Part shown: piece after piece, positions 13,761-61,681 of the stretch
Layout of the letters: each line of letters opens with the position of its first letter
How positions within the stretch are numbered: position 1 is the stretch's first letter
NCBI GenBank assembly: GCA_015178975.1
Contig: WHVD01000001.1
Coordinates: forward strand, 1,302,001-1,366,000
DNA: 64,000 bases
Direction of reading: 5' to 3'
DNA from: Hysterangium stoloniferum
Taxonomy: Eukaryota; Basidiomycota; Agaricomycetes; Hysterangiales; Hysterangiaceae
The notes under the pieces: generated by a model
What the model was told of the DNA's origin: nothing
What the model saw: only the letters and a program-made list of their open reading frames with translations
Database searches by the model: none
Made by a program: the position numbers and the translations under genes

Positions 13761-14293
13761 GGCCATCTCACCACATGCCTGCCATCTCACCACATGCCTG
13801 GCCATCTCACCACATGCCTGGCCATCTCACCACATGCCTGGCCATCTCACCACATGCCTGGCCATCTCACCACATGCCTGGCCATCTCACCACATGCCTG
13901 GCCATCTCACCACATGCCTGGCCATCTCACCACATGCCTGGCCATCTCACCACATGCCTGGCCATCTCACCACATGCCTGGCCATCTCACCACATGCCTG
14001 GCCATCTCACCACATGCCTGGCCATCTCACCACATGCCTGGCCATCTCACCACATGCCTGGCCATCTCACCACATGCCTGGCCATCTCACCACATGCCTG
14101 GCCATCTCACCACATGCCTGGCCATCTCACCACATGCCTGGCCATCTCACCACATGCCTGGCCATCTCACCACATGCCTGGCCATCTCACCACATGCCTG
14201 GCCATCTCACCACATGCCTGGCCATCTCACCACATGCCTGGCCATCTCACCACATGCCTGGCCATCTCACCACATGCCTGGCCATCTTGCCAC
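13761..14293. repeat. 20-bp minisatellite, 26 units
   Basis: The unit GGCCATCTCACCACATGCCT is repeated 26 times (the second lacks one G), the 24 units of 13800-14279 being identical, plus a diverged partial unit. All three plus frames are open only because the unit lacks stops; the apparent proteins of up to 219 codons are artefacts. The right flank is the same Tc1-derived sequence as 63850-64000, where only about one and a half units occur. Confidence 0.97.
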
Positions 14294-14932: not shown

Positions 14933-15617
14933 TTACTGCCAGTCAATATACACCACTTGTCCACCAGAGCTTAGGATCTGCTCCCTGGCCTGCAGGACCT
15001 GTACCTCTAGTTGTTCTGCATCAGTCCATCTGTCCAGCAGATGATATGTGGCAGCCAAGCTGGCCCTGGCAGTCAGTGTGTCTGGGTGTTCAGTGCCTAG
15101 GATCCACTCTGTGACCTCCAGTACCTGTACCTGCAGTTGCTCTGCATCAGTCCATCTGCCCAGGTGCCCAAATGTGGCAGCCAACCAGGCCCTGGCACTC
15201 AGTGTGTCTGGGTGTACAGTGCCTAGGGTCTGCTCTCTGGCCTGCAAGACCATCACCTGCAGTTGTTCTGCTTTAGTCCATCTGCCCAGGTTCAAATATG
15301 TGGCAGCCAACCAGGCCCTGGCTCTCAGAGTGTCTGGGCATTCAGTGCCTAGGACCTGCTCACTGGCCTCCAGGACCTGAACCTGCAGTTGTTATCCATC
15401 AGTCCATCTGCCCAGCAGATGATATGTGGCAGCCAAGCAGGTCCTGGCACTCAATGTGTCTGGGTGTTCAGTGCTTAGAATCTACTCTGTGGCCTCCAGC
15501 ACCTGCACCTCTAATTGTTCTGTATCAGTCCATCTGCCAAGCAGATGATATGTGGTAGCCAAGCTGGCCCTGGCACTCAGTGTGTCTGGGTGTTCAGTTC
15601 CTAGGATATGCTCCCTG
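14933..15617 (-). pseudogene. TPR array, 3' part of a split NB-ARC/TPR gene
   Basis: The minus-strand translation is a run of 42-residue KLC-type tetratricopeptide repeats (each with ILGTEHPDTL...A.LAATY..LGRWTDAEQL), with some frame breaks. It is the downstream half of the gene continuing at 24357-26208. The 8.7 kb retrotransposon between them begins at 15618 and both sides carry CCCTG. When the insert is removed the repeat REQILGTEHPDTL reads across the junction. The 3' end of the gene fades near 14940. Confidence 0.8.
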
Positions 15618-16236
15618 TGTGAGAGGTATCCTGAAATATATCTCTGATTATATTTCCTCCTTTATTTCTACTACTACATTTCATGTTTGGTAGTATTTAC
15701 ATTAGTTCAAAGATCTATACATATATGCCTGTGGATACATAGATACTTGTGGGTGTGCACACTGTAGTTTCATGTACATTATTGTGCATAGTTAGAACTC
15801 AGACACTTTTACCCCATAACCACAACTTGCCCAGACACCCTTTCAATGTCCTGCAAGTTGTGATTGGGGGGTAATCATCTTACCCATATCGAATGGCTTT
15901 CAACTCAAATTCACAATCACTATCTAGCTTCATACTGAATAGTTGAAGCTTGAACTATCACTGGTTTTAACTTGCATATTGCACTACTTGTATCAACCTC
16001 TTTCCCTTCTAACTCATAACTTCATTAACTCACTTTTGGAATCATACTGTAAGGTTGATTCTACTTTCCCTTAGTTGTCATACATATAGTAGTTGTCTTA
16101 CAGCTACTAAAGTTGACTAAGACTATTTTACTATTCATATTGTACTTTGATAGTCAATATACATATTGTCATGTTGTACCTATACAGTTGATATTCTTCA
16201 TATATAGAATGGTCAAAACTTACATGACTCTTCACA
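15618..16236 (+). repeat. 5' LTR of the 8.7 kb element
   Basis: A 619-bp repeat from TGTGAGAGG to CTCTTCACA, matching the 3' LTR and, inverted, 7048-7644. Confidence 0.85.
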
Positions 16237-24356: not shown

Positions 24357-26208
24357 CCCTGGGCTTCAGCACCTGGACCTGCAGTTATTCTGCATCAGTC
24401 TATCTGCCCAGCCGATGATATGTGGTAGCCAAGCTGGCCCTGGCACTCAGTGTGTCTGGATGTTTAGTTCCTAGGATCTGCTCCCTGGCCTTCAGCACCA
24501 GCACCTATAGTTGTTCTGCATCAGTCCATCTGCCCAGCTTCACATATATGGCAGCCAACCAGGCCCTGGCTCTCAGAGTGTCTGGGTGTTCAGTGCCTAG
24601 GACCTGCTCACTGGCCTCCAGGACCTGGACCTGCAGTTGTTCTGCCTCAGTCCATCTATCCAGCTGGTAATATGTGTAAGCCAAGGAAGCCTTGGCACTC
24701 ACTGTGTCTGGGTGTTTACTGCCTAGAATCTGCTTCCTGGCCTCCAGCACCTGCATCTGTAATTGTTGTGCATCAGTCTGTCTGCCCAGCAGATGATATG
24801 TGGCAGCCAAGCTGGCCCTGGCACTCAGTGTGTCTGGGTGTTCAGTTCCTAGTATCTGTTCTGTAGCCTTTAGCACCTGCACCTGCAGTTTTTTGGCATT
24901 AGTTCGTCTGCCCAGCTTCAAATATGTGGCAGCCAACCAGGCCCTGGCTCTCAGAGTGTCTGGGTGTTCAGTTCCTAGGATATACTTCCTGGCCTCCAGC
25001 ACCAGCACCTGCATTTTTTCTGCCTCAGTCCATCTACCCAGCAGGTAATATGTGGAAGCCAAGGAATCCTTGGCACTGACTGTGTCTAGATGTTTACTGC
25101 CTAGGATCTGCTCCCTGGCCTCCAGCACCTGCACTTGTAATTGTTCTGCATCAGTCAATCTGCCCAGTTTACGATATGTGATAGCCAAGTTGGCCCTGGC
25201 TCTCAGTGTGTCTGGGTGTTCAGTCCCTAGGATCTTCTCCCTGGCCTCCAGCACCTTCACCTGCAGTTGTTCTCCATCAGTCCATCTGCCCAGGCCCAAA
25301 TATGTGGCAGCTAACCAGGCCCTGGCTCTCAGAGTGCCTGGGTGTTCAGAACCCAGGATTTCCTTCCTGCATTCTACCATCTCTACCTCTAGTAATTCTG
25401 CCTCTGAATATATACCAGCCTCTTTGTACACTAGGGCAGACCTCTGAAACAAATAATCATAGTAGTCTTTTTTCTTTCCACTAGTCACAGACTGATTTGC
25501 AATAATGTGAGGCAGAACATCTCATCGGAATAGTATGTCATTCATTTTGTCTGATTCATTGATACTGCCTACTATTAATGCTGTGGCTGCATAATAATGG
25601 GGTATACAATCTATTCCCAGTGCCTGATGTCTCATCCACATATGAATTACTGGGTGTATTGTCCATGAATATGAAGATTGTGTAACAGGATCTCTAGAGA
25701 GAAGTGAATAATTACAGAGGACTTGCATGGCTGATCTGAATGGCAGACGTTCCCATTCTTTATCACTATTGCATCTGAGCAGCTAAGCAGGTAGATCTAA
25801 TGAAGTGGTTTTCAATCTCCCATCATAACTATTTGCAGGTGGGAATTCTGCAGCTCATTTGAAAATGCTTTCCATGATGTTCTGGTGATGAAAGAATCCC
25901 AAAACTTTCAATATGAATAATGCATTTTGTGCTTGTGTTGAGAACATAGCCTGCTTTTCAATCAGATCATATGACACTTTCAAAGTACTATAAACAGTGT
26001 CATTATATCCTAGTGCCCCTTTCGTGAATGGATTGTCTGCATCAAAAAAATCTCTTTGATATTTTTCATACATAATTAGATACTCTGACATTGGGCAGAG
26101 TCCAGTTGAGATGGCTGCACCAGCAATATCTAGTGCTAGAGGAAAGAAGCCAAGTCTGGTAACAATCTTCTTTGACAATTCTTGTATTGTAGCATCTGCC
26201 TTATTGTA
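24357..26208 (-). pseudogene. NB-ARC/TPR (NLR-like) gene, 5' truncated, split
   Basis: On the minus strand, 26208 to about 25500 aligns closely with residues of the intact gene at 52455-57799: the GLPLAL-type motif region (PLALDIAGAAISTGL), the winged-helix-like segment and the linker. In-frame stops lie at 25855, near 25783 and at 25522. From 25488 to 24505 it is open for 327 codons with eight 42-residue TPRs (ILGTEHPDTLRARAWLAATY type). Upstream homology stops abruptly at 26208, where Helitron-like sequence is joined, so P-loop and hydrolase domains are lost. The 3' part lies at 14933-15617 beyond the retrotransposon. TPR units here are more diverged from one another than in the intact paralogue. 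Confidence 0.85.
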
Positions 26209-26241
26209 AGAAGCTGCTCAAGGTTAGTATTGATAACTTTC
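26209..26241 (+). mobile_element. 33-bp scrap of Helitron leader
   Basis: AAGAAGCTGCTCAAGGTTAG and the following 13 bp are identical to 29749-29781 in the leader of Helitron 2. It joins the truncated NLR gene to an LTR fragment and then to Helitron 1 coding sequence. Confidence 0.75.
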
Positions 26242-36800: not shown

Positions 36801-36939
36801 GGGGCTTTTCTTCATTCGTACAGGCTCAGCACATCTACGGCACACCCACTCCCATCCACAGCACAGCCATCCACCACACACCCGCACCCATCCACCCACT
36901 CCCATCCACTGCGCACCCACTACCTTCATGGTGCACCCT
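36801..36939. repeat. CA-rich CACCCACTCCCATCCAC tract
   Basis: Short imperfect repeats of ACCCACTCCCATCCACAGC, similar in style to 41755-42040 inside the second satellite block. Confidence 0.5.
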
Positions 36940-39889: not shown

Positions 39890-42605
39890 TTCTCTCTTTG
39901 TGCATGTACCATTTCCTGCTCTCTCCATCTGGGTGTGTGTACCATTTCCTTCTCTCTTCATCCTCTTCTGATCGTCCTCCTCTCTCTTTCCTCTGTTAAA
40001 ATTGCAACTAATATTTATCTCAGTCTCATATTAGGGTATAACGGACTAAGTGTATGTACCTAATATTTATCTAACACATATTGTCAATACAGCAATAAGG
40101 GACGTTATTTAGAGCAAACTCACCTCAGTCTCGTATTAGGGTATAACGGACTGAGGTGTAGATAGTTTGACTACATAGTTTAAATACTGTGCAGTGAATG
40201 ATGACCATATGTGGAACAAGGGGATGACGTGTCATTTCGTGTATCCACGATCGTGTGTTCTAAAAATACATATCGTTCGTCGAATCCATTGTTCATGTAT
40301 ACATTCCAACATCCTCCAGTCGGTCTGTGTACCGTTTCCTTCTCTGATTGTCCTCCTCTCTCTTTCCTCCAGTCGGTCCATGTACCATTTCCTCCTCTGA
40401 TCATCCTCCTCTCTCTTTCCTCCAGCGAGTGTATGTACCCTTTCCTTCTCTCTTTGTCCTCCTCTGATCAGCCTCCTCTCTCTTTCCTCCAATCGGTGCA
40501 TGTACCGTTTCCTTCTCTCTTCGTCCTCCTCTCTCTTTCCTCCAGTGAGTGCATGTGCCATTTCATTCTCTCTTCATCCTCTGATTGGCCTCCTCTCTTT
40601 CCTCCAATCAGTGCATGTACCATTTCCTTCTCTCTTCGTCCTCCTCTCTCTATCCTCAAGCGAGTGTGTGTACCCTTTCATTCTCTCTTCATCCTCTGAT
40701 CGGCCTCCTCTCTTTCCTCCAGTCAGTCCGTGTACTGTTTCCTTCTCTCTTCATCCTCCTCTCTCTTTCCTCCAGCGAGTGTGTGTACCCTTTCATTCTC
40801 TTTTCATCCTCCTCTGATCAGCCTCCTCTCTCTTTCCTCCAATTGGTGCATGTACTGTTTCCTTCTCTCTTCATCCTCCTCTGATTGGCCTCCTAGCTTT
40901 CCTCCAGTCAGTGCGTGTATCGTTTCCTTCTCTCTTCACCCTCCTCTGATCATCCTCTCTTTTCTCCAGGAGGTGCATGTACCCTGTCTTTCTCTCTTCG
41001 TCCTCCTCTCTCTTTTCTGCAGCCGGTGCGTGTACTGTCTCCTACTCTGTTCATCCTTCTCTGATTGGCCTCCATTCTCTTTCCTCCAGTTGGTGTGTGT
41101 ACTGTTTCCTTCTCTTTTCGTCCTCTGATCATCCTCCTCTCTCTTTCCTTCAGGCGGTGCGTGTACCCTTTCTTCTGTCTCCATCCTCTGATTGGCCTCC
41201 TCTCTCTTTCCTGCCGACAGCAGCATGTGTACCCATTCCTTCTCTCTCCATCCTGCTCTGATCGGCCAGGCACAATGCGGCGACAATGCACTACGCCATT
41301 CAGGCATGCATTCGCAAACGCAACATGCACATGGGTGCTGGCAGGTGCTATGATCCTGCACTGATCATCCTCTCTCTCTTTCCTCCAGCCAGTGCATGTA
41401 CTGTTTCCTTCTCTCTTCGCCCTCCTCTTCTCTTTCCTGTAGCTGGTGCATGTACCATTTCCTTCTCTCTCCATCCTCCTCTGATTGACCTCTTCTCTTT
41501 CGTCCAGCTGGTGCATGTATCATTTCCTCTTTTTTCGTCCTCCTCTAATCATGCTCCTCTCTTTCCTCCAGGTCATGCATTGTCCCCTTTCTTTCTCTCT
41601 TCATCCTCCTCCGAGCATCCTCCTCTCTTTCCTCCAGCCAGTCTGTGTACCATTTCCTTCTCTCTCTGTCCTCCTCTAATCAGCCTCCTCAGTCTTTCCT
41701 CCAGGAGGTGCATGTACCCTGTCCTTCTCTCTTCTTCCTCCTCTGATCGGCCTCCTCAACAGTGTGCACACCCACTCAGGCCAAATGGGCACAGCACTTT
41801 GCATGCGAGTGTGAACAGGCATGGCCCACCCACTCTCATCCACGGCACACCCACACCCATCCACAGGCACATGCCTGCCCACCAACTCGGGCACAAACGG
41901 GCATGCCACATCATTTACCAATGCGTGCACACCCACTCGAGCACAAACAGGCACAGTGTGTTGCATCTGCTGATGCGCGCACATACCGCACCTGTTCCCA
42001 GCGTGCTGTGCCCGATTGGGCGCGCACCCTGCTCTGATTGGCCCCTCCAGTTGGTGTGTGTCCCCTTTCCTTCTCTCTTCATCCTCCTCTGATCGTCCTC
42101 CTCTTTCCTCTAGGATTTGTGTCCCCATTCCTTCTCTTCACCCCTCTGTCTTTCCTCCAGATGGTGCATATACCCTTTCCTTCTCTCTTCATCCTGCCCT
42201 GATTGGGCCCCTCTCTCTTTCATCCAGCCACTGCATCTACCGTTTCCTCCAGCCGGTGCGTCTACCATTGTGGGGGTGCGCGAGTGTTGTCTCTTTGTCC
42301 TCTGATCAGCCTCCCCTCTTTCCTCCAGCCGGTGCGTGTACTGCTCCTTCACCCCTCTCTCTTTCCTCCAGCCGGTGCGTGTACTGTTTCCTCCTCCCTT
42401 CATCCTCCTCTAAATGGCCTTCTCTTTCCTCCAGCTGGTGCGTGTACCCTTTCCTCCTCCCTCTGTCCTGCTCTGATCAGCCCTCTCTCTCTTCCCTCCA
42501 GGTGGTTTGTGTACCCTTTCCTTCTCTCTTCTTCCTGCCCTGATCGGCCTCCACTGTCCTCCAGCCAGTGCATGTACCATTTCCTTCTTCCTCCGTCCCC
42601 CTCTG
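39890..42605. repeat. Pyrimidine-rich satellite, block 2
   Basis: About 35 units of the same 54-67 bp family as 36940-38255, interrupted by a solo LTR (39994-40311), by about 100 bp of other DNA at 41265-41365, and by a CA-rich tract at 41755-42035. The TTTCCTCCAG + TGCATGTACC core is retained in almost every unit. No gene. Confidence 0.92.
39994..40311. mobile_element. Solo LTR, family E, target duplication TCCTC
   Basis: 318 bp from TGTTAAAATTGC to CATTCCAACA, flanked by TCCTC at 39989-39993 and 40312-40316, inside a satellite unit (TTTCCTC|CAG). It contains two copies of TATTAGGGTATAACGGACT (about 40030 and 40134). Only copy in the window; orientation not known. Confidence 0.8.
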
Positions 42606-43050
42606 ATGGGCCTCAATTAAATCAGAATAATTCAAATAAAATATAATAAATGAACATAAAATGTTAAAAATAAAATAAAATAAATTGAAATGAAAAACAA
42701 TAAAATAAAATAAAATAAAATTCAATAAATCAAAATAAAATACAGTAAATCAAAATAAAATACATTAAATCAAAATAAATAAGTTGAGTGACCACAGTAA
42801 TTACTGCAGTTGAGAGTCAATTTAACCACTCTTTCCATTTGGAACCATTGTTTCCTTTTGAAATCCAATCATGCAAATAAAATCATGGCAATAATCCATC
42901 CATGCTTAAAGAATGCTTATCAATTTTCTGTCAAACAATGTCTTTCTCTACTGTCATTGCTCTTCTGACCTGGGATTACTTTTTGGGCCTGTGATTACTT
43001 GTGTGAGCTATCATTGCTTTTCTGGCCTATCATTACTCTTCTGAGATAGA
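42606..43050. repeat. Second copy of the satellite-flanking segment
   Basis: Corresponds to 38256-38630; homology ends abruptly near 43046 (ATTACTCTTCTGA). Confidence 0.85.
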
Positions 43051-46459: not shown

Positions 46460-48076
46460 CAGTGACCTCAAAAACCCTTTCCATGTTGACCCCAAATGTA
46501 GTGTTTGAAGAACACCGCCTTACAGCGTGGGAATTACACTTAGCTTTGGTGGAGTCATACATAGTACATCCTCTTGGCTAATTGCTCCCTGGGTCATGTG
46601 ATTCTGATCACAGGGTGTAGAGATATGATTAATTTAAAACAGCAATACCATGGAAAGGGTTTTTGCACTTTTGAACTGAACAGGGTATTTACATATTATC
46701 AGTACTTGGTATAACCACCTTTTGCTTTAAGCACTGCCTGAACCCTTCTAGGCATGCTTTCAATCAATTTCTGACACTCCTCAACTGGTATTCTATCCCA
46801 CTCCACTTGAATCCTTTCCCACAATTCATGAATTCCATTGGGGGGGTTTTCATGCTCTGCAAGCCTTCTCTTGAGACAACCCCAGAGATGTTCAATAGGA
46901 TTCAGGTCTGGGGACTGTGCAGGCCAAACCATAGCCCTGAATTCTTGCTCTTCTAGCCAGTTCTTGACTAGCCTGCAGGTATGCTTAGGGTCATTATCTT
47001 GCTGAAAGATGATGTCAGAAGGATTGAGACCATAATACTCCAGGGTTTGCTGGAGCTCATCCTTCAAAATTTGAAGATAGAGGTCTCCATCCATCCTACC
47101 ATCAATCTTGCTAGCAAAGCCAACTCCCTCCCAAGTCATACAACCCCACATCATAAGAGAACCTCCTCCAAACTTCAGAGTTCCCTCTACCAGCCTATCA
47201 TTAAGGCCTTCACCTGCCCTTTTCCATGCCCATTTACGTCCATCTGACCATAGGCGATTGATTTTGGTTTCATCAGACCATATAACCTTCTTCCAGTCCT
47301 CCATAGTCCAATCTTTGTGAGCATAGGCAAAGTCCAAGTGAGCTTTGTGATGCCTAATGGAAAGAAGGGGGCATTTTGACTTGACCACAGCCTTCATACC
47401 AGCTTTCTTCAAGTGGAGGTGAACTGTACTGGCAGAAAGGGGCTGGTTGATAATGTTGGTAAGGGCTTTGGTCACTTAAACAGCATTTTCAGCTTTGCCA
47501 GAGGTGATGAGATGCTGAGCATGTCAAATATTTGTAGGAGAAAGCTTTGAGGGACAACTCCCAACAGCTTTGGGAAGGAGAGAACAATGTTTGGAGCGAA
47601 GTTTGGATATGGCAGATAAGCTAACACCAGTTCTCTTGGCAATAGCTTCACCAGAGTGGCCAGAATCAAGCAAGGAGAGGATGGTATTTTGTTGAGTAAG
47701 AGAGAGGGATCTGACCATGATGGTGGTTAGGAATCAAGAAGTGTGGAAGTGTGAGAACTTTTTTAAACTCAGACATACTATTTACATGTATATATCTATT
47801 TGTACCAACAAATAATAGCCATTATTCTATGATTTGACTGAGATCCTAGTCATCAGTTCAAAAGTGCAAAAACCCTTTCCATGGTATTGCTGTTTTAAAT
47901 TAATCATATCTCTACACCCTGCAATCGGAATCATGTGACCCAGGGAGCAATATTGTAGCCAAGAGGATGTACTATGTATGACTCCACCAAAGCTAAGTGT
48001 AATTCCCATGCTGTAAGGCGGTGTTCTTCAAACACTGCATTTGGGGTCAACATGGAAAGAGTTTTTGAGGTCACTG
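46460..48076 (-). mobile_element. Tc1/mariner element, 1,617 bp, long inverted ends
   Basis: Bounded by TA (46458-46459 and 48077-48078). Ends CAGTGACCTCAAAAACCC and its complement. The inverted repeats are about 220 bp each (46460-46679 and 47855-48076) and very similar. Each one also carries, at its inner end, an inverted copy of its own outer CAAAAACCCTTTCCATG motif. Inside is one transposase gene on the minus strand with two stops. R2 homology resumes directly after the element. Confidence 0.93.
46699..47718 (-). pseudogene. Tc1 transposase with two nonsense codons
   Basis: One continuous minus-strand frame of 340 codons starts with ATG at 47718 (MVRSLSLTQQNTILSLLDSG), interrupted by TGA at 47524-47526 and TAA at 47476-47478. 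The N-terminus is the helix-turn-helix pair (GHSGEAIAKRTGVSLSAISK). The DDE domain follows: VIWSDETKINRLWSDG (first Asp), FQQDNDPKHT (second Asp) and PAQSPDLNPIEHLWG (Glu; 34 residues between). The C-terminal ESMPRRVQAVLKAKGGYTKY is complete. All catalytic residues are kept, so inactivation is recent or read through in part. Confidence 0.93.
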
Positions 48077-48929
48077 TAAATATTAATATTTCCTTATTCT
48101 CCAGAATGTCACTTGATGGACTGAATGTGATGAAATATTAATTCTACAGCAAACAATATAAATACATATACTTGAGTAGATACATAAATAACTTTTAAAG
48201 TTGTGGGTTATCCTCCACTGTGATGCAAAGAATGACATCATTGTTGTTGGGTGTTATGAACCACTAAAATAGGAAACAGAAATGAAACAATGTTGAAAAA
48301 CCATTGGATGGCTACAAATGAATAAGAAGTTACATTCAAAAAGTGCATAGTCATTTTTGATGTCAACTCACATATCTGTAAGAGAGACAAAAGTGGTGGT
48401 TACAAGTTAAAAGAAGGCATGGTGTTGGCAATCTTAGACAGAAACCAAAAAATATATGAAAGGTGACTGATGAGATAAATTAAAAAGGGAAGTGAAAGAT
48501 CACAAACATTATGAAATACACAAAAACAAATACATGACTATAAAATGCATCAGAAAACAGGGGAAGCAATGAAAAACAAAAAGCAATGGTGGTTATGTTA
48601 GACAAAAAACTAAGCAGTGTGCAAAAGATGACACATGAATACATTGAAAAGGACAGGGAAATGTGGTGAGCATTATGCAAGACACCAAATGTTTTGCAGA
48701 AGATGCAAAAAATGATATATTTGTTGCTGATATTAATCCACATGGACCATTCATGAAGTGATAGATTTCAGAGAGGGCTTATTATGTAACTTCCTCATCT
48801 TTCCTATCTGAGGTCATGGCCTCTACACAGTGTGTTAGAAGTGATCACTGGCCATATTTCACAAATAGCAATGACCCCAACGTGTTTACAAAGAGATGTC
48901 AGTGTTTGACTGCTACAGCTATATCTGTG
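48077..48929. other. End of R2, then AT-rich DNA without recognised gene
   Basis: 48079-48200 continues R2 (matches 62370-62490). The rest is AT-rich with no convincing frame. Confidence 0.5.
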
Positions 48930-49257
48930 TTCAGTGCAGTGCCTAAGATGCGCTTGCTGGCTTCCAGGACTGCACCTGTAGTTGTTCTGCAGCAGTCCAT
49001 CTACCCAGTTGACAATATGTGGCAGCCAAGTTGGGCCTGTGTCTGGGTGTTCAGTGCTGAGGATCTGCTCCCTGGCATCAGTTGTTCTATATCAGTCCAT
49101 GTACCCAGCTGATAATATGTGGCAGCCAAGCTGGCCCTGGCACTCAGTGTCTCTGGGTGTTGAGTGGCTAGGAGCAGCTCCCTGGCCTCCAGCACCTGCA
49201 TGCATAGTTGTCCTGTATCAGTCCATCTACCCAGCTAATAATATGTGGCAGCCAAGT
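48930..49257 (-). pseudogene. TPR fragment of the NB-ARC/TPR family
   Basis: The minus-strand reading gives two to three 42-residue repeats (LLLATQHPETLSARASLAAT; YQLGTWTDIEQL) with frame breaks. About 330 bp only, with no NB-ARC part. Confidence 0.75.
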
Positions 49258-49479
49258 TCAGCTAATCTTTCCCTTTCCATCATGTTGTTGATGTGCAAGT
49301 AGAAGTCCTCCATGTGAATTGCCAGCATGAGTGGCCCGATAACTCTGTATGCTTTCCTTGAGCAATGGCATTATTTGCCCTAATTGCATTAATACTTTCC
49401 CTACTGTGAATTGCACAGAAGGGTAATTTATTGATACATGCATCCAACTGGTTGGAGTGGGACGGTCCACAGTAGCCAC
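49258..49479 (-). pseudogene. Gag-like fragment (family of 6022-6477)
   Basis: 73 codons with HVSINYPSVQFTVGKVLMQL, matching VAINYHSAQFTIMTVLGQLL of the ORF at 6022-6477. It is joined directly to the TPR fragment. Confidence 0.45.
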
Positions 49480-49646
49480 TGTGTTGGAAATAGTGTGTCA
49501 GTGGAGGAGGTAATTTAAGACCATACTGTATGTAATACCAACCACTGTTCCATCTATATTGCTCTGATTTCAGTATGTATATAATCTAATATGAAAGGCA
49601 CTTGAGGTTACACCCTTAAGTACAGTGTAAGAATGGAACTACACAA

Positions 49647-49714
49647 GGTCAGGTCTAGTGGCAACACCCTTGCTAGACATGCAAAGACCCTGGGTTCAAT
49701 TCCCAGTCTGGCCA
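49647..49714 (+). other. tRNA-like sequence (SINE head or tRNA pseudogene)
   Basis: 68 nt fold as a tRNA: acceptor GGTCAGG/TCTGGCC (seven pairs with two wobbles) plus discriminator A; a perfect T arm CTGGG-TTCAATT-CCCAG carrying the B box GGTTCAATTCC; and an anticodon arm CTTGC-TAGACAT-GCAAA with anticodon GAC (Val) and one mismatch. The D arm is too short for a normal tRNA. It is most likely a tRNA-derived SINE head or a decayed tRNA-Val gene. Confidence 0.45.
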
Positions 49715-50306
49715 TTCATTTTCTACATTTTTCAGTGTGTTGGTGAGCACACTCTTGAACCAGCTGTGTTTGGTGTATCTCAAGGGAATCCAGATGAGGA
49801 TGTAGAAGAAGGACTCCAAATCATCAGTGGGGACCACTGGTAGCTGACCAGGGGTGGGAACCACCAGTAAATGAGTAGCCATAAATTACCAGGTACCCTG
49901 TCCATGATGGAAACAAAGAGAAAAGAGTTACACAAAGCTGAAGTCAAGTCCTGACCCTACCCAGATGTATCTGAGTTCCTGGTTATTTCTCAATAGTTCT
50001 GGAATAAGTCCCAACATGGAACTTAACATCACTTCCAAATCATCTCAAAGGAATCCATCCCATATTTAACATTTGGAGCTAAGGCTTTTCCCGGTCAAGT
50101 TCTCGTCATATCTACAAGAAATTTGATTGAGGGCACATACTTGTGCAGATCAGAAGCTTGAAATATTTAAGGTTGCAGAGATTGAATAAAAGACTGATTG
50201 GCAGGCACAGCAGGCACTTCGGTACGGATGTATTCAAGTACCTGAAATTGTAGACCATTGAGCTTTCCGCGCCCAAAAAATGCACTGGGATGCATAGTAT
50301 AACCTG
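49715..50306. other. No recognised gene
   Basis: Possibly the body of a SINE after the tRNA-like head. Repeat density drops from about 50180 on, and CG dinucleotides become common. Confidence 0.35.
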
Positions 50307-50465
50307 TCATTTTTTGCGGTCGTCCGCTTGGTTCAATTCTGAATATTCATTCCATTCCTCCCAACCAAGTTCTCGGAGACTCGATGGAATACTATGCGAA
50401 TAAAGATTGACCGTGTACTTGACGCGGATGGTGGCCTTGGGTCCGGGGCCACGCTTGGGCAGGAA
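50307..50465 (-). CDS. Possible 3' exon of an unidentified gene
   Basis: A minus-strand frame ends TGA at 50307-50309 and reads RWFLPKRGPGPKATIRVKYT, then a hydrophilic tail ending ADDRKK. Codons favour C at third positions, unlike the surrounding repeats. Upstream the frame closes (TAA near 50474) and I could not place an acceptor site. It would be divergent from the cyclophilin. I do not recognise the protein. Confidence 0.25.
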   Translation of the reverse strand, partial: FLPKRGPGPKATIRVKYTVNLYSHSIPSSLRELGWEEWNEYSELNQADDRKK

Positions 50466-50687
50466 CCATCGCGGTTGGATTTATATGGTGAAAAGACGTG
50501 TCATTGGGATGGCGCTGAGTCCATAAAGGGCGTTTCTTACTTTTTCAAACTGCTTCTAACTGGCGGTTCAAAAAATCCACACTCCGTCTAGCTTATAACT
50601 TCAATCAACCCTGTAGCTTTGAACTCTCCATCTCAGAGAACTTCCGGACATTTAGCTGAGAGCTGAGCCAATCACTCCTCATTCAAT

Positions 50688-51536
50688 ATGGCGACTCCCA
50701 ATGTGTCCTTTGAAATTATTGTTGCCGGCAAGCCAGCGCAAGTCGACGCTTACCGTATAAAACTCGCTTGGTAATATGGCTTCAGGGGTCGTATTACCTT
50801 CAGACTCTTAGATGATGTCGTACCCAAGACTGCCCGAAATTTCCGTGAGTTAAGCACTGGTCAAAACGGCTATGGCTATAAAGGCAGCCGTTTCCATCGT
50901 ATTATCCCCCAGGTGATTGATTTTTTATCTTATGATTTATATTAGAGCTCATGCACTCTCCTAGTTCATGATTCAAGATAGTTTGTTACCCATTTCTAAG
51001 TATAATCACAACTGACAATTATTGTAGGCGGTGACTTTGCCAAACACGGCGGAACCGGTGGCAGATCAATCTATGGGCAGAGCTTTTTAGGTTAATATCG
51101 CTCATGTTGTGGAAATATCGATCTATATACCAATCATTCCATTTTTAGACGAGAAATTTATGCTCAAACACGAAAGGCCTTTCCTCCTCTCCATGGCTAA
51201 GCCCTAACACCAACGGTGCTCAGGTGCGTCATCCGGCCATCGCATGCCTCGCAATGTCACACACCAACCAGTTTTTCATTACCACCATTTCTACCAGTGT
51301 AAGTCACCTACACTGCTGTATCTTCAGTAGTAGAACCAACCTCTAATATTTTTAGTGGTTCGACGGGAAGCGCTGTGTGTTTGGAGAAGTCGTTGAAGGC
51401 CGAGAGGCATATTCATTCTCAATATCACCCGACATATTAAGTCGCTTTACAGCTCCTGAAGCAAATAGAGGCACTTGGATCTGGATATGGCGCCCCCAAG
51501 GAAATAGTAGTCATCACCAACTGTGGAACCTTGTAA
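50688..51536 (+). pseudogene. Cyclophilin (peptidyl-prolyl isomerase), damaged
   Basis: Eight exons: 50688-50737, 50786-50912, 50965-50977, 51028-51090, 51149-51223, 51272-51298, 51356-51406, 51453-51536. They read as a single-domain cyclophilin of about 165 aa: [70 protein letters not shown] and the end VVITNCGTL. Phases agree at every junction except exon 5, where five bases are missing at SMA|PNTNGAQ (about 51200-51203), removing the conserved NAG and shifting the frame. Introns 1 and 7 use GC donors (GCAAGT; GCATAT), and intron 3 has AT where GT is expected. The usual active-site His of DGKHVVFG is Arg here. The Arg, Phe, Met and Gln of the RIIPQFMIQ block and the Trp are kept. Cyclophilins isomerise Xaa-Pro bonds. 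This copy is a recent pseudogene, or the deletion is an assembly error. Confidence 0.85.
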
Positions 51537-52454
51537 ACGGTGTGACTCTGAAGGGCTCGCTTGATAAACAATCGATTATTCAATTATGACTAAAATGCCT
51601 TCTCAAAGAATAAAACAAAGAATAATACCATCTTGTACCTTTCTTTTCTGCCTTGTTAATTGTCCTGCTGGGACGTCTCTGTCAAAAATTTATACTTATG
51701 AATATAATAATGCTTCTGGAGATTGCTCACAATAGATATATATATATATCAAAAGCGCATTAATAATATGAGTGTTAATTAAACAAACTTGAAGTACTGC
51801 TTATACACCCTCACGTCACCACATAGAGCTTGGAGCATAGGTCGACGGGGGGAGCATTCTGCATCATTCCTACTCATCTGTGTGGCATTCTTCACCCACT
51901 GCGTTTTTGCGTTCTCCTCTGCTCGTCCAACAGATATACGTACTAACTGGGACCTTGACCAATAGATGAGGCTTGATGGACAAGGCTGTTCCGAATGATT
52001 CTTAGTAACATTGCACAATACGTGTCAAACTCTGATCTGAAATCAAAATTTTGGTGGCTCCAGTAGACCGAGCACAGACAACTGAAACTGCACCAGCTAC
52101 TGAATGAAACTGAATTCTGACATTCTTTTGGGGGTTTGCACTGGGGGAATGAAGTGGATTCCTACTATCCCCAATGGTCAAGTAAATAATAAGGTCACTA
52201 CCACTCAATACTGGCCTGGGACCAAAGTAACAACACCCAGCAGATCACACAGTAAGGGACCATCACTCTCCCCGTTACCGCCTCAAGACGGCGACAACGA
52301 CCCGACATCTCTTCCTGGGAATTTACAAAGAGGTTTAGGTATATAAAGGGAGTGGTATTTAGTAAGGACAAGTATGTATGTTACACATAACAGTACTATT
52401 AGTAGGCGCCACAGTACCACAGGCGCGCATAGTACTATTTTAGATAGAGCGTTT
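51537..52454 (-). other. Intergenic; minus ORF 51779-52018 unassigned
   Basis: One minus-strand frame (79 codons, ending VYKQYFKFV) has balanced codon use and no repeat character. It could be the last exon of a gene convergent with the cyclophilin. Another frame at 52002-52208 could be an upstream exon. No family is recognised. AT microsatellite at 51737-51748. Confidence 0.3.
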
Positions 52455-55400
52455 TTACTTACAGTCATCATTGTATATTGCACTTGTTGTTCTCGAGGAA
52501 TACAATTTGGTCCTACCAACGTCTGGACCGATGCCAATGTAAGGCTGCACCAAGCTGGCCCTGGCACTCAGTGTGTCTGGGTGTTCAGTGCCTAGGAGCT
52601 GCTCCCTGGCCTTCAGCACCTGCACCTCCAGTTGTTCTGCATCAGTCCATCTACCCAGTTGACAATATGTGGCAGCCAAGCTGGCCCTGGCACTCAGTGT
52701 GTCTGGGTGTTCAGTGCCTAGGAGCTGCTCCCTGGCCATCAGCACCTGGACCTCCAGTTGTTCTGCATCAGTCCATCTACCCAGTGGACAATATGTGGCA
52801 GCCAAGCTGGCCCTGGCATCCAGTGTGTCTGGGTGTTCAGTACCTAGGAGCTGCTCCCTGGCCTTCAGCACCTGCACCTCCAGTTTTTCTGCATCAGTCC
52901 ATCTACCCAGTTGACGATATGTGGCAGCCAAGTTGGCCCTGGAACTCAGTGTGTCTGGGTGTTCAGGGCCTAGGAGCTGCTTACTGGCCTTCAGCACCTG
53001 GACCTCCAGTTGTTCTGCATCAGTCCATCTACCCAGTTGACAATATGTGGCAGCCAAGCTGGCCCTGGCACTCAGTGTGTCTGGGTGTTCAGTGCCTAGG
53101 AGCTGCTCCCTGGCCTTCAGCACCTGGACATCCAGTTGTTCTGCATCAGTCCATCTACCCAGCTCATAATATGTGGTGGACAGGTTGGCCCTGGCACTCA
53201 GTGTGTCTGGGTGTTCAGTGCCTAGGAGCTGCTCCCTGGCCTTCAGCACCTGCACCTCCAGTTTTTCTGCATCAATCCATCTACCCAGTCGACGATATGT
53301 GGCAGCCAAGCTGGCCCTGGCACTCAGTGTGTCTGGGTGTTCAGTGCCTAGGAGCTGCTCCCTGGCCTTCAGCACCTGCACCTCCAGTTGTTCTGCATCA
53401 GTCCATCTACCCAGTCGATGATATGTGGCAGCCAAGTTGGCCCTGGCACTCAGTGTGTCTGGGTGTTCAGTGCCTAGGAGCTGCTCCCTGGCCTTCAGCA
53501 CCTGGACATCCAGTTGTTCTGCATCAGTCCATCTACCCAGCTCATAATATGTGGTGGACAGGTTGGCCCTGGCACTCAGTGTGTCTGGGTGTTCAGTGCC
53601 TAGGAGCTGCTCCCTGGCCTTCAACACCTGCACCTCCAGTTTTTCTGCATCAATCCATCTACCCAGTCGACAATATGTGGCAGCCAAGTTGGCCCTGGCA
53701 CTTAGTGTGTCTGGGTGTTCAGTGCCTAGGAGCTGCTCCCTGGCCTTCAGCACCTGCACCTCCAGTTGTTCTGCATCAGTCCATCTACCCAGTCGATGAT
53801 ATGTGGCAGCCAAGTTGGCCCTGGCACTCAGTGTGTCTGGGTGTTCAGTGTCTAGGAGCTGCTCCCTGGCCTTCAGCACCTGGACATCCAGTTGTTCTGC
53901 ATCAGTCCATCTACCCAGCTCATAATATGTGGTGGACAGGTTGGCCCTGGCACTCAGTGTGTCTGGGTGTTCAGTGCCTAGGAGCTGCTCCCTGGCCTTC
54001 AACACCTGCACCTCCAGTTTTTCTGCATCAATCCATCTACCCAGTCGACAATATGTGGCAGCCAAGTTGGCCCTGGCACTTAGTGTGTCTGGGTGTTCAG
54101 TGCCTAGGAGCTGCTCCCTGGCCTTCAGCACCTGCACCTCCAGTTGTTCTGCATCAGTCCATCTACCCAGTCGATGATATGTGGCAGCCAAGTTGGCCCT
54201 GGCACTCAGTGTGTCTGGGTGTTCAGTGCCTAGGAGGTGCTCCCTGGCCTTCAGCACCTGCAGCTCCAGTTGTTCTGCATCAGTCCATCTACCCAGTTGA
54301 TGATATGTGGCAGCCAAGCTGGCCCTGGCACTCAGTGTGTCTGGGTGTTCAGTACCTAGGAGCTGCTCCCTGGCCTTCAGCACCTGCAGCTCCAGTTGTT
54401 CTGCATCAGTCCATCTACCCAGTTGATGATATGTGGCAGCCAAGCTGGCCCTGGCACTCAGTGTGTCTGGGTGTTCAGTACCTAGGAGCTGCTCCCTGGC
54501 CTTCAGCACCTGCACCTCCAGTTGTTCTGCATCAGTCCATCTACCCAGTTGATTATATGTGGCAGCCAAGTTGGCCCTGGAACTCAGTGTGTCTGGGTGT
54601 TCAGTGCCTAGGAGCTGCTCACTGGCCTTCAGTACCTGCACCTCCAGTTGTTCTGCATCAGTCCATCTACCCAGTTGACGATATGTGGCAGCCAAGTTGG
54701 CCCTGGAACTCAGTGTGTCTGGGTGTTCAGTGCCTAGGAGCTGCTCCCTGGCCTTCAGCACCTGCACCTCCAGCTGTTCTGCATCAGTCCATCTACCCAG
54801 TTGACGATATGTGGTAGCCAAGTTGGCCCTGGAACTCAGTGTGTCTGGGTGTTCAGTGCCTAGGAGCTGCTCACTGGCCTTCAGCACCTGCACCTCCAAT
54901 TGTTCTGCATCAGTCCATCTACCCAGTCGATGATATGTGGCAGCCAAGTTGGCCCTGGAACTCAGTGTGTCTGGGTGTTCAGTGCCTAGGAGCTGCTCCC
55001 TGGCCTTCAGTACCTGCACATCCAGTTGTTCTGCATTAGTCCATCTACCCAGCTCATAATATGTGGTGGCCAAGTTGGCCCTGGCACTCAGTGTGTCTGG
55101 GTGTTCAGTGCCTAGGAGTTGCTCCCTGGCCTTCAGCACCTGCACCTCCAGCAATTCTGCATCCAAGCATTTACCAGCCACTTTGTACACTAGAGCAAAT
55201 CTCTCAGAAAGATCATCATAGTAGTCTTTTTTCTTTCCATTAGTCACAGACTGATTTGCAATAATGTGAGACAGAACATCTTGCCGGAACAATATGTCAT
55301 TCATTGTATTTGATTTATTAATGCTGCCTACTATTAATGCTCTGGCTGCATAATAATGGGGTATACACTTTATACCCAGTGCCTGATCTCTTATCCACAT

Positions 55401-57799
55401 ATGAATTACTGGGTGCATTGTCCATGAACATGAATATTGTGTAACTGGATCTCTGGAGAGAAATGAATAATCACAGAGGACTTGCATGGCCAATCTGAAT
55501 GGCAGACGTTCCCACTCCTCATCACTATCACATCTGAGCAGCTGAGCTGGTAGATCTGATGAAGTGGTTTTCAATCTCCCATCATAAGTATTTGCAGGTG
55601 GAAATTCTGCAGCTTGTTTGAAGATGCTTTCCATGATGTTCTGGTGATGAAAGAACCCCAACACATTCAATATGAATAATGCATCTTGTGCTCTTGTTGA
55701 GGACATAGCCTGCTTTTCAATCAGATCATATGACACTTTTAAAGTACTATAAACAGTGTGATTATATCCTAGTGCCCCTTTCATAGATGGATTGTCTGCA
55801 TCAAAAAAGTCTCTTTGATATTTTTGAAGCATAATTAGATACTCTGACATCCTACAGAGTCCAGTTGAGATGGCTGCACCAGCAATGTCTAGTGCCAGAG
55901 GCAAGCAGCCAAGTTTGGTAACAATCTCCTCTGACAATTTCTGTATTGTAACATCAGCTTCATTATCAGATTTGGCTGCAGCTTGAAAGAGGGCAACTGC
56001 TTCATCACTCTCCATTGGCATAACATTCATTGACTCTGTGACATGGCTGGCTAGCCCAGGATTACGGCTAGTAATCAGCACATGATTCTGCCGCATCTGT
56101 TGCAAATACTCTTTAACCACTCCATCCATTCCATCAGCATTGTCAAAGATGATGAGACACCTCTTTTGAATGGCTGTAAGCCACCTCAAAACTTCCTCCG
56201 GAGCCTTTTCAATGCCCTTGGATTTAATTTGAAGATCATCAGCAATCCTTAAAAAACCATTTCCTATTGTTTCTGTATTTGTACCATCTATCCAGAAAAT
56301 CTTCCAAAAGTTACTTAATACCTTGCTGTCAGTGCTGATAAGAATAAATAAATGATTAGCAGCTCACTAGTCATTGCTAAGTAGCTCTTCAATGAATTTC
56401 AAACAAATCTGTGTTTTCCCAACTCCTCCCATACCATACAAAAGGAATCGTTTCCATGCTGGGAGGGAATTGAGGCAGTTCTCCGGAGCAAAAAACTTTC
56501 GGAGTCTGATGAGATATTTCTCCTGTCCCACAAAGCTTGGACTAGGACAGAGCTTGGGCATGTATATAGGCCCAGTGGGGGTATCCCCTGCTGAATAATG
56601 TTAACCCATGTATGTCTATTTTGTTAACACACACCACTTTGATCATTAAATTTAATCCACCGGACATGAACTGCAGCTGGAGCTTTCTTGACCATATCTT
56701 GTATAACACACAACACAGCCTTGAAGTCGTCATCATTAACAGACTCAAATTTGGACATCCCAGTGTGATCCTTATTCATGCCTATCGGTTCTATGTTGAC
56801 AGCCCCAGGCACCACAGCAGACAATCTGGGAACAATCTAGATACATACTATAATTTAACATTTCCTTCAGGTATATTAGAATTTCTAAACTCACAGTTGA
56901 AATATGACCAGGGAGAGTAGTAGCTAAAGTTTCATAGAAAAAATTCATGTGTAAATGGGCAGTGATCGCATTAAAATCAGATATTTGTTGTTGTAATAGT
57001 TCGGAGTGAACGGTCAAATGCCTCAACAAGATATTGTTTGGCTGCCTGCATAGCGAAACAAGTTTGGGCACTATGTCCGTTCCTTGGTGAGGGGTACCAA
57101 GGAAGACGATGCCATATGTTGACAAATGAATCCATTTATGTGGGAAAAGATGCCCTTTATGGGCAGCATTTGCTTGTAATAGGGCCTGTTCCCAACTATG
57201 AATGAAATGAAGCGCGATTTTGTATTATTATGAGGTGACGTACACTCTTAAGAATAATGCCGCCTAGGCTATGTGCGATGAAGATTATGGGGCGTTTCTA
57301 TCGAAAATAGAAAAAAAAAGTCATCAGGAAGCAAGCCAAATACCAGCGATTTCAGTCAGTGAACCTTAGTGTCGTCTGTTTCCCTAGACATGCGAAGTCG
57401 TACAAGGAAATTCTGTGCATGACCATATAAAGTCTGTTCACACAATGAATTCTCTGTGTAAGCATCGTAACCATATGACAAAATGCGCGCTCCAGGTATA
57501 GCCTGTGGGAGAAAGTCCTGGAGCCAGAGCTTGTCGTTATCGGCCGTCCAGGACTTTTCGCGATGGCCATCGAGCCCATGAATAGCGACAATACTATACA
57601 AGGTTAGGAAGCGGAAAAACTGATATGCTTAAAGCTCAATCACTCACTCTATCGTGGGGGTAGTCCCCGGTGAAAGTTCCTTAATTCCGAAACCGGGATC
57701 ATTGTATGTGTCTCCCGGTTGCTCCACGACATCAGGGGAATGACCACTTCTTAGTTCGATTTTAGCAAAACGATGACGCAGCTTCGCCAAAAACGGCAT
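52455..57799 (-). CDS. Alpha/beta-hydrolase - NB-ARC - TPR protein (fungal NLR/STAND type)
   Basis: Minus-strand gene of seven exons that join in frame: 57799-57648, 57593-57365, 57297-57244, 57185-56895, 56836-56635, 56590-56368 and 56325-52455 (56334 also keeps frame). It encodes about 1,675 aa. Start: MPFLAKLRHRFAKIEL at 57799. Residues about 50-240: alpha/beta hydrolase of the SERAC1/lipase-like type (VAIHGLDGHREKSW; nucleophile elbow AHSLGG, Ser about 137; YGIVFLGTPHQGTD). Residues about 325-600: NB-ARC with P-loop GMGGVGKT (about 362-369), Walker B CLIIFDNAD, HVLITSRNPG and LPLALDIAG. Residues about 770-1660: 21 KLC-type TPRs of 42 residues. Such STAND proteins are ATP/ADP-switch sensors in fungal non-self recognition and cell death; TPRs sense ligand or partner and the hydrolase would be the effector. 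No stop or frameshift is seen. The last TPR is cut short (LVQPYIGIG then stop). Confidence 0.88.
52545..55150 (-). repeat. 126-bp tandem array encoding 42-residue TPRs, 21 units
   Basis: Units differ at few positions, mostly at the residue pair before LGRW (HR, RQ, HQ, CR, YE, CQ, NQ) and at KAREQ/KASEQ. Within it a three-unit block of 378 bp is repeated three times (see 53116-54249). The near identity explains the 779-codon open frame on the opposite strand (52478-54817). Confidence 0.95.
53116..54249 (-). repeat. 378-bp higher-order repeat, three copies
   Basis: The marker CTCATAATATGTGGTGGACA recurs at 53162, 53540 and 53918, exactly 378 bp apart. Each copy contains the three TPR types ending YELGRW, CRLGRW (or RRLGRW) with IDAEKL, and HRLGRW. 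Copies 2 and 3 are nearly identical. Confidence 0.93.
56326..56367 (-). other. Very short intron of the NLR-like gene
   Basis: GTGAGC donor, CTAAT branch-like motif and TCAG or GACAG acceptor give an intron of 33 or 42 nt. Removing either length deletes two consecutive in-frame stop codons and keeps the frame (LSND-Y-...). The other five introns are 54, 67, 58, 58 and 44 nt. Confidence 0.65.
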
Positions 57800-59941: not shown

Positions 59942-60059
59942 AATTCCTGTCAACTGGGCAGATGGACTGATGCAGAACAACTGGATGTGCAGGTCCTGGG
60001 AGCAGATCCTAGGCACTGAGCATCCAGACACTCTGAGTTCCAGGGCCAACTTGGTTGCC

Positions 60060-61681
60060 TGTTAAGCTTGTGTACATGGAGGGTTTCCAGAGAAACCTGT
60101 GGGAAAGCCAGTAGGACTTGGCTTCAGCTTATAGGCTGCACCCTCGCTAGATCATTTTGTCCAATTTCAAATGGGCAGACAGGAATCCCAGGGAGTCTGG
60201 GTGGGGTTCATGGGTTGAGAGGTCGGGGAGTCAAGATAGATAAGTCAGAGGTTGAGTGATAGGCAGGTCAGAGCCTGTGGGCTCTAACGAGTAAGAGTGG
60301 TGTGTTTCAAAGAGGAGTTTAGAGCAGAAAATATACTAAGATTACTGGGGAGAATCTAAGCTGATTTTCTGACTGGATTGTATGTACAACATCTGCCAGA
60401 CTATATAAACTGTGGAATGAATAACTGTTAGGATACGTACAGGGTGGGTCCCCAGAGAAACCTGCGGAATATCCAGTAGGACTTGGCTTCAGCTTATAGG
60501 CTGCGCCCTCGCTAGATTGTGTTGTCCAATTTCAGACAGGTGGACGGGAATCCTGGGGAGTCCAGGCGGGGGTCATGGGTCGAGGGGTCGTAGGTCGGAG
60601 GTCGTGGGTCGTGAGTCGAGATTAGTGAGAGAGATAGATGTGCCAGAGCCCATGGACTCCGACTAGTGTGAGCAGTGTGATTCAAGTAGGGTTTTAGAGT
60701 GGAAAATGTATTAGATTACTGGGGGGAATCTAAGCCGATTTTCTGACTGGATTGTATGTACAACATCTGCCAGTTTAAATAGACCGTGGAGTAAATGTCA
60801 TACTGAATCCAGTAATAATGAAACAAAATGAGCAAAACATAAAACAGGAATAGTAAACACCAAATTGGTGTTAGGAACGGGATGGAACGGAGCGGAGTCC
60901 GAATAGTGACAAATCATAAACCATAATGGGAAATGGAGCGGGAGCAGAGTCCGAATTGTGACAGGTCATTTGACTAAAATGGGAACGGGGCTCTGTTAGA
61001 GAGGTGATGGGTTTTCTGAGCAGGGTCCGGTGACTGATGCGCAGGACGAGGTCGGATATAGATAGAGACGGAGTCCGGTGGGTTTTCCAGTGACTGAAAC
61101 ACAACGTAATGAAGATGAATGTAGACGAGTCTGATGTACAGAGTCTGGCGGGAATTCTGGTAAACTGATAATGGGTGCGTATAGGGCATGGGTGCATATA
61201 AGTTAGTGCCCAGAGTCTGGCAGGATTTCCAGTCATAACAATAACATACCAAATCCAGTAATAATGAAAACTAAACTAGCAAACATAAAATGAGATAAAT
61301 AAACACCAAACTTGGTGTTAGGAACGGGACAGAACAGAGTGGAGTCCGAATCATTACAGGTCATGAAACCATAATGGGAATGGGGTGGGAGTGGAGTCCA
61401 AATCATGACAGGTCATTTAACCATAACAGGAATGGGGCTCAGTTAGAGGGCTGACGGGTTTTCTGAGTGGGGTCCAGTGACTGGTGCATGTGACAGGGTC
61501 AGATATAGACAGGAATGGAGTCCAGTGGGTATTCCGGTGACTGATACATGAAGTAACGAAGGTCGAGTGTGGACAGGTCTGATGTATGGAGTCCAGCAGG
61601 TATTCCAGTAAACTGATAATTGTAGGGTGCGGTTGCATATATGTTAGTGCCCAGAGTCTGGTGGGAATTCCAGTCGTAACA
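60060..61681 (-). mobile_element. Solo LTR, family B-like, target duplication TTGCC
   Basis: Outer LTR from TGTTAAGCTTGTG to CAGTCGTAACA, flanked by TTGCC (60055-60059, 61682-61686). Its own sequence is 60060-60425 plus 61246-61681; the rest is another LTR inserted into it. Confidence 0.9.
60426..61240 (-). mobile_element. Solo LTR, family B, nested, target duplication ATAAC
   Basis: 815 bp from TGTTAGGATACG to CAGTCATAACA, flanked by ATAAC (60421-60425, 61241-61245), inside the LTR 60060-61681. Confidence 0.92.

Follow-up and report, generated by a model that had tools for sequence, protein, structure and literature searches.

A sesB-like/NB-ARC/TPR gene of Hysterangium stoloniferum as a probable fungal NOD-like receptor with repeats varying at the predicted contact face and a 3′ end cut by an insert

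We describe here a gene of NOD-like receptor (NLR) build from the basidiomycete Hysterangium stoloniferum, located on a stretch of 64,000 nucleotides (assembly GCA_015178975.1, contig WHVD01000001.1, here C1, positions 1,302,001 to 1,366,000) which is termed “the window” in its whole length and gives the coordinates used below unless a contig is named. The protein carries a SesB-like alpha/beta hydrolase domain, an NB-ARC domain and an array of tetratricopeptide repeats (TPRs), in this order and in one open frame; it belongs to a large family, its repeats vary at the contact face, and its 3′ end has been cut by an insert. We consider it probable (about 0.72) that the locus is a fungal NLR, a sensor of non-self that releases a lipase-like effector, and as such it is a further member of an already known receptor type, since the sesB-like/NB-ARC/TPR build is known from Podospora. 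What matters is the host: SesB-like domains were described as almost missing from basidiomycete NLRs (PMC9815663), whereas the exon with the HSLGG motif was found in 31 of 32 loci here. The reported absence may partly be a matter of annotation, because only about 13–15% of basidiomycete N-termini could be annotated in 2014 (PMC4986451).

The gene lies on the minus strand, where seven exons (Table 1) join into a frame that starts with an ATG at 57799 and closes with a TAA that ends at 52455, giving 5031 bases and 1676 amino acids without internal stop. The six introns measure 54, 67, 58, 58, 44 and 33 nt, all with GT-AG borders, and the same six GT-AG introns are kept in all five paralogs compared, termed p813, p954, p1172, p1188 and p1227. 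In the coding part ahead of the TPRs, 2370 aligned bases hold no gap in any of these six sequences and a single stop among the paralogs (in p813), whereas the introns of the same sequences show 2–9 gap columns. Because the splice sites are kept and the coding part is free of gaps in all five paralogs while the introns are gapped, the predicted gene model is far beyond chance. A Pfam search, run on the first 904 residues, returned DUF676 at residues 53–184 (22.5 bits, cut-off 20.3), NB-ARC at residues 360–559 (56 bits, cut-off 23.5, E 4.6e-15) and TPR_10 (105.5 bits, cut-off 27.5). The hydrolase motifs are spread over the exons, with HGLDGH in exon 2, AHSLGG in exon 3 and a candidate catalytic histidine within NKDHTGMSKF in exon 5. 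Among 32 loci searched, including the window's own, all 31 with an exon-3 match keep the serine of HSLGG; exon 5 was likewise matched in 31 loci, and all 29 whose match extends over the candidate histidine keep that residue. Judged from sequence, the predicted serine nucleophile and catalytic histidine of a SesB-like effector are thus both in place. The P-loop of the NB-ARC part reads GMGGVGKT, and the 33-nt intron (56367–56335) splits this domain. Together, an NB-ARC domain with P-loop, C-terminal TPR repeats and an N-terminal effector domain with its own annotation (DUF676) make up the parts by which fungal NLRs are recognized.

These results bear out most of the structure proposed in an earlier note, which had been made from the letters of the window alone. 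The seven exons with their coordinates, GT-AG introns and open frame were confirmed, the hydrolase motifs HSLGG and GTPHQG and the P-loop were found, and its count of about 21 TPRs agrees with 20.7 copies of 126 bp in TRF and 20 whole 42-aa units picked by motif. The domain search that it had called for placed DUF676, NB-ARC and TPR_10 above their Pfam cut-offs in the claimed order, and its assignment to fungal STAND/NLR proteins with a putative lipase-like effector domain is supported by domain order and Pfam. The bacterial FxSxx-COOH system TPR protein (NF040586) was also considered as an identity for the 553-residue NB-ARC and first TPR part, and was rejected at 197.2 bits against a curated cut-off of 300.

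The repeat array is the putative sensor. Its TRF copies match at 93%, and the window units differ by a mean of 8.05 in 126 bases; judged on these DNA differences, the repeats would exceed 85% identity over at least 100 aa, as repeats of high internal conservation (HiC) do. Arrays as alike as this are described as error-prone in short-read assemblies (PMC12222747). Units 8–16 include three identical pairs at lag 3 and two at lag 6, a pattern that marks the three-unit block as a recent expansion, as read from unit identity. When four genes were compared, the nearest neighbour of 9 of the 20 window units lay in another gene, in two cases as a tie with the window gene itself, and the fast change of the array that had been claimed earlier is supported. 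For the family as a whole, 271 units were taken from 29 of 32 sources (three gave none) with a motif in which unit positions 6 and 8 are fixed and 19, 22 and 23 restricted, and which requires at least 22 of 42 matches to a typed consensus. Residue entropy over these 271 units is highest at unit positions 20, 10, 17 and 21 (2.73, 2.63, 2.51 and 1.99 bits), which in our own alignment to the TPR consensus are TPR positions 12, 2, 9 and 13. The concave, ligand-facing set of TPR positions is given as 2, 5, 9, 12, 13, 33 and 34 (PMC1261162). Mean entropy over these seven contact positions is 1.89 bits versus 0.60 for the rest, a value matched by one of 100,000 random seven-position sets and by no other of the 42 rotations. 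At unit codons 10, 17, 20 and 21, the ratio of nonsynonymous to synonymous diversity (piN/piS) reaches 2.02 for the window array and 2.44 for the set of four genes, values confounded by the mutability of CpG; at the other 38 codons the ratios are 0.51 and 0.67.

An AlphaFold2 model was made for 740 residues of the last exon with 25 sequences, and its TPR part alone was used, where the TPR blocks reach a pLDDT of about 83–96. By our own count on this model, unit positions 6–22 would form helix A and position 25 to the unit end helix B, so that the seven contact positions would lie within helix A and the final part of helix B. Foldseek matched the array to kinesin light chain TPRs and other TPR domains, among them the nearly identical TPR repeats of Podospora anserina (4y6w and 4y6c, TMt 0.79 and 0.80), whose entries are titled TPR-like repeats of a putative kinesin light chain.

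In total, 111 Mb of the genome in 554 contigs were searched. The 5.8S/ITS2 border of the host reads TTGCGCTCCTTGGTATTCCGAGGAGCATGCCTGTTTGAGTGTC in the best of five 5.8S matches, a border which we take to be of basidiomycete, agaricomycete type, and class I hydrophobin (PF01185) gave 18 genome matches; a search for class II hydrophobin gave none, with a control that was silent too. A profile search with PF00931 gave 51 matches, and the NB-ARC part of the window protein gave 58 at 43% identity or more, corresponding to at least 57 loci with the window's own, since two matches form one locus; this is a lower bound from the best 58 of 547 candidates. Four of the family matches to the NB-ARC part reach 92–96% identity, and a search with two TPR units gave at least 236 matches with the best 150 of 1570 candidates scored. 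Eleven family loci lie on C1 between 1.056 and 1.504 Mb (450 kb), namely the window gene, a broken copy at about 25.4–26.2 kb of the window, and nine others; NLR clusters of Sordariales are described as having two to five members under a 40-kb distance rule (PMC12258605), but several gaps here are wider than 40 kb, up to about 100 kb. A small TPR-like remnant also lies upstream of the NLR gene on the plus strand (59948–60166).

Among 29 paralog loci (L020–L048), 18 keep an open frame throughout the first 734–740 codons of the last exon. The other 11 contain an earlier stop, which in three loci comes after three codons and could be due to an exon border placed differently there. Being open in this part does not make a locus whole, since a stop follows later in p1172 (L020). 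For sequence more than about 1.5 kb past the match, the comparison covers the five named paralogs. Over the 15 pairs of the six sequences, dN/dS is 0.18–0.54 in the hydrolase and 0.27–0.69 in the NB-ARC part, and the private changes (nonsynonymous/synonymous) are 10/6 in the window gene, 11/6 in p1227, 3/5 in p1172, 6/6 in p1188, 23/6 in the stop-bearing p813 and 66/50 in p954. These values support coding constraint on the family, and they suggest it weakly for the window copy alone. The earlier note had seen the gene as under selection and as the survivor in a transposon graveyard. Constraint is supported for the family, and for the window copy by itself 10/6 private changes are too few to tell; the contrast of a lone survivor fails because the family has at least 57 loci and 18 of the 29 paralogs checked are open.

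The closest known system is Pa_2_10340 of Podospora, which has the sesB-like/NB-ARC/TPR build with variation on the concave face (PMC4986451). Both share the order of three domains, TPRs that are alike within a gene and variable sites on the concave helix face, and a repeat number variable between isolates would be a further likeness; our system differs in its basidiomycete rather than ascomycete host, its at least 57 loci with 11 in 450 kb, the contact codons that carry all CpGs of the window array, and the end that an insert supplies to the window copy. The HNWD genes het-d/het-e of P. anserina (HET/NACHT/WD40) are similar in concerted repeat evolution, diversified contact residues, pseudogene members and a mutation supply proposed to act in the repeats, namely repeat-induced point mutation (RIP), but have another effector, NOD type and repeat, and RIP there prefers CpA whereas the mark here is CpG (PMC1805685). 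PLP-1 of Neurospora crassa (patatin/NB-ARC/TPR) likewise joins a lipase-type effector to NB-ARC and TPR and triggers cell death with incompatible SEC-9; it differs in its patatin effector, where the window gene has a DUF676/SesB-like hydrolase, and in having a known partner (PMC12881547).

Taking PLP-1 and other fungal NLRs as a model (PMC12881547), we infer that the TPR superhelix would bind a non-self or altered-self ligand through positions 2, 9, 12 and 13 of helix A, and that binding would open the NB-ARC switch, with exchange of ADP for ATP and oligomerization. This would gather the N-terminal hydrolase domains and activate them on membrane lipids, and the attack on lipids would lead to membrane damage and further to restricted growth or cell death. 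New specificities may arise from duplication of repeats as three-unit blocks, exchange between loci and point changes at the contact codons.

Several points weigh against this receptor reading. The DUF676 match of the hydrolase is only just above the cut-off, and a sequence search of the PDB with the hydrolase gave a best match of E 0.33. Over all 271 units piN/piS is only 1.05 at the four codons and 0.73 if codons 20 and 21 are taken by themselves. Within the window array, TPR positions 2 and 9 vary little, and 12 and 13 are the only conspicuous ones. Since the units are linked to each other by copying, neither entropy nor piN/piS counts independent events, and the motif used for picking units itself constrains positions 6, 8, 19, 22 and 23. 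Ahead of the TPRs the model has low confidence, with a pLDDT below 50 at residues 82–334. Two of the three closest C1 paralogs are damaged, p1172 by a stop within the array and p1188 by a frameshift, with p1227 looking whole, and the window copy is damaged at its 3′ end, lacking the native C-terminus seen in p1227. A scaffold or transport protein of the ordinary intracellular kind, akin to kinesin light chain, would also fit the TPR fold, for which kinesin light chains (3zfw, 7ai4, 6fuz) are the best solved structures. Kinesin light chains, however, have coiled-coil heptads before their TPRs and are not known to carry an NB-ARC, hydrolase or NTPase, whereas NB-ARC and hydrolase precede the TPRs here. 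The kinesin light chain identity was rejected for this reason, and with a large, clustered and recently expanded family whose repeats change at the contact face, we regard the scaffold explanation as very improbable.

The damage at the 3′ end means that the gene is not “intact” as earlier claimed: the frame leaves the TPR array at 52549 and enters a dispersed repeat, and the native 3′ part continues from 49258. In the last unit, LGTEHPDTLSARASL is followed by the tail VQPYIGIGPDVGRTKLYSSRTTSAIYNDDCK and the stop, and a donor-like GTAAGT string at 52462 overlaps this stop codon. In contrast, p1227 ends in ...LQVQVLEGSKHILGTALNR, the C-termini of p1227 and p813 being typical of the family (...QLQVQVLEGSKHILGTALNR or similar), so the tail was rejected as a native C-terminus. 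The insert as a whole is composite, and CTTGG at both of its edges fits a 5-bp target-site duplication, but TPR units carry CTTGG anyway; a clean long terminal repeat (LTR) insertion was rejected because the ends are not TG...CA and the insert is composite. Past the insert, the native flank at 48079–49258 is 88–91% identical to the 3′ ends of p1172, p1188, p1227 and p813, and farther down it is interrupted once more, matching in pieces at 46458–46164 and 45345–44804. The window copy could be a young pseudogene, disabled by the insert and still open for lack of time, with copies such as p1227 doing the work. In its favour, the last repeat is cut, the native end is lost and the stop comes from a dispersed repeat, close paralogs carry stops or frameshifts, and private changes of 10/6 are compatible with relaxed constraint. 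However, the 5031 coding bases are free of stops, the 2370 bases ahead of the TPRs align with five paralogs without a gap, and the nonsynonymous/synonymous ratio of the private changes resembles that of p1227 and is lower than that of the stop-bearing p813. Moreover, p1172 and p1188 have an in-frame TAG a few codons past the insertion point, and because the same TAG is found in the right flank of the window's insert, the insert may have replaced just the last few residues of a C-terminus already shortened in the lineage. Since the end of the last repeat is swapped for a tail of 31 residues, the window copy can still encode all three predicted domains. We take the young pseudogene to be a serious possibility, though one that we lean against.

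A different doubt concerns the contact codons, where variation at TPR positions 12 and 13 could be mainly mutational, by CpG decay rather than selection. The observed/expected ratio of CpG is 0.26 in the window and 0.068 in the TPR array, and all 11 CpGs of the 20 window units fall in unit codons 20 and 21, as do 13 of 13 in p1227, 15 of 18 in p1172 and 27 of 30 in p1188. Codon 20 is spread over CGT (61), CAT (59), TGT (53), TAT (45) and others (53) in the 271 units, and three of eight stops in units are in codon 21. When five sequences are compared, CpG diverges more than any other dinucleotide, with a mean ratio of 5.5 for the 10 pairs against 1.4–3.3 for the others counted alike. Transitions make up 0.82 of the weighted single-base codon differences at codon 20, versus 0.13 at codon 10 and 0.48 at codon 17, but they also dominate codons 37 (0.94), 14 (0.85) and 41 (0.78), with CpG rare at 37 and 14. 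Pure decay should deplete CG, yet CGT is the commonest state of codon 20, the two CG bases vary almost independently (odds ratio 0.81), and CpG decay does not yield TAT directly. Across the 271 units, strong variation is also seen at positions 2 and 9, where CpG is absent. Codons 20 and 21 hold 99 of 148 CpGs over all units, with 18 more at codon 41, but just 33 of 76 outside the four closest genes. A mainly mutational origin appears unlikely to us on balance. Even more doubtful is the idea that CpG decay serves a methylating basidiomycete as an inherent mutator that acts on its immune-type receptors at specific positions. In such a scheme, the closest genes would nearly purge CpG from their units except at contact positions 12 and 13, kept as CGT and CGA, where decay of methyl-cytosine would flip Arg to Cys, His or Gln at the ligand contact; unit duplication and exchange between loci would restore the starting codons, and the price would be stop codons at position 13 and many dead copies. 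The count of 33 of 76 and the high transition shares at codons 37 and 14 weaken both the mutator idea and the mainly mutational origin.

Codon choice was also considered. Arg is CGT in 61 of 61 cases at unit position 20 and CGA or CGG in 37 of 37 at position 21, mixed at position 41 (CGN 18, AGR 14), and AGR in 715 of 715 at positions 10, 12, 24 and 39. These raw counts were rejected as independent evidence, because the units are copies and the independent count is four columns versus two; CGN codons are not rare in themselves, since Arg in the window's coding part ahead of the TPRs is CGN 14 times and AGR 20 times. RIP has been proposed as a mutation supply for the Podospora WD repeats (Paoletti et al., 2007; PMC1805685), and CpG-biased hypermutation, genes included, was reported from Rhizoctonia solani in a study which was not on NLRs (PMC4014442). 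The CpG mutator idea is thus a hypothetical extension of known thinking. Within the literature searches made here for CpG in NLR repeats, none of the papers dealt with contact codons coded by CpG in such repeats. If the pattern holds across isolates, it would offer a direct test of whether DNA methylation helps to steer receptor diversification in fungi without classical RIP.

Table 1. Features of the NLR locus and its relatives in the window
Feature	Position	Strand	Basis or detail
NLR gene, ATG to stop	52455..57799	-	exons 57799-57648, 57593-57365, 57297-57244, 57185-56895, 56836-56635, 56590-56368, 56334-52455
SesB-like (DUF676) alpha/beta hydrolase domain, residues 1-309, exons 1-5	56635..57799	-	Pfam DUF676
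NB-ARC domain, residues 360-559 (coordinates approximate)	55809..56440	-	Pfam NB-ARC; place located by PF00931 search
TPR array of 126-bp units: 20 whole 42-aa units, leading part and cut trailing part	52550..55163	-	TRF, unit extraction, model
Three copies of a 3-unit (378-bp) block, units 8-16	53100..54233	-	unit-difference minimum at lag 3
Truncated dispersed-repeat copy giving the last 31 residues and stop codon	52411..52549	-	repeat search and alignment
Composite insert, 3.29 kb, in the last TPR unit	49259..52549	.	repeat piece, low-copy segment and short high-copy repeats; CTTGG at both edges
Remaining TPR array and native 3′ flank, with in-frame TAG common to two paralogs and small deletions	48079..49258	-	paralog alignment
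Broken paralog: end of NB-ARC part and TPRs, several stops	24358..26217	-	similarity matches
TPR-array remnant of another paralog	14966..15625	-	similarity matches, tandem repeats

The dispersed repeat that supplies the tail has at least 38 other copies in the genome at 84–90% identity, found among the best 40 of 210 candidates, where one of the 40 scored matches is the window itself and one covers only the stretch beyond the tail. Ten copies, including that of the window, were aligned; the repeat (52411–52549 in the window, L010–L018 elsewhere) is about 190 bp when whole, with ends that look hairpin-like by eye, and its class was not recognized. Rfam gave no match at gathering scores over the whole window, and a known structured RNA in the tail repeat was rejected accordingly. 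The low-copy segment of the insert recurs at four other loci with 87–96% identity, at 1.66 and 1.70 Mb of C1 and twice on contig C323, and carries cyclophilin-like exons on the plus strand at about 50675–51300 (Pro_isomerase, 37 bits for one exon). It appears to represent a small family of mobilized or duplicated gene pieces.

Beside the native 3′ flank lies a Tc1/mariner-type transposase piece (DDE_3, HTH_Tnp_Tc3_2; minus strand, 46702–47475). Elsewhere in the window, a reverse transcriptase and RNase H piece is found on the plus strand at 22219–22941, and Helitron remains extend over 32790–36243 of the same strand, with Helitron_like_N at 32790–33509 and a PIF1-like helicase in a frame of 933 codons at 33445–36243, the two lying in different frames. 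Tandem repeats are represented by 26 copies of the 20-bp unit GGCCATCTCACCACATGCCT at 13761–14287 (99% matches) and by long CT-rich arrays at 36937–38075 and 40312–42614, whose units of about 50–130 bp contain CTCTTTCCTCCAG and show strong GC and AT skew.

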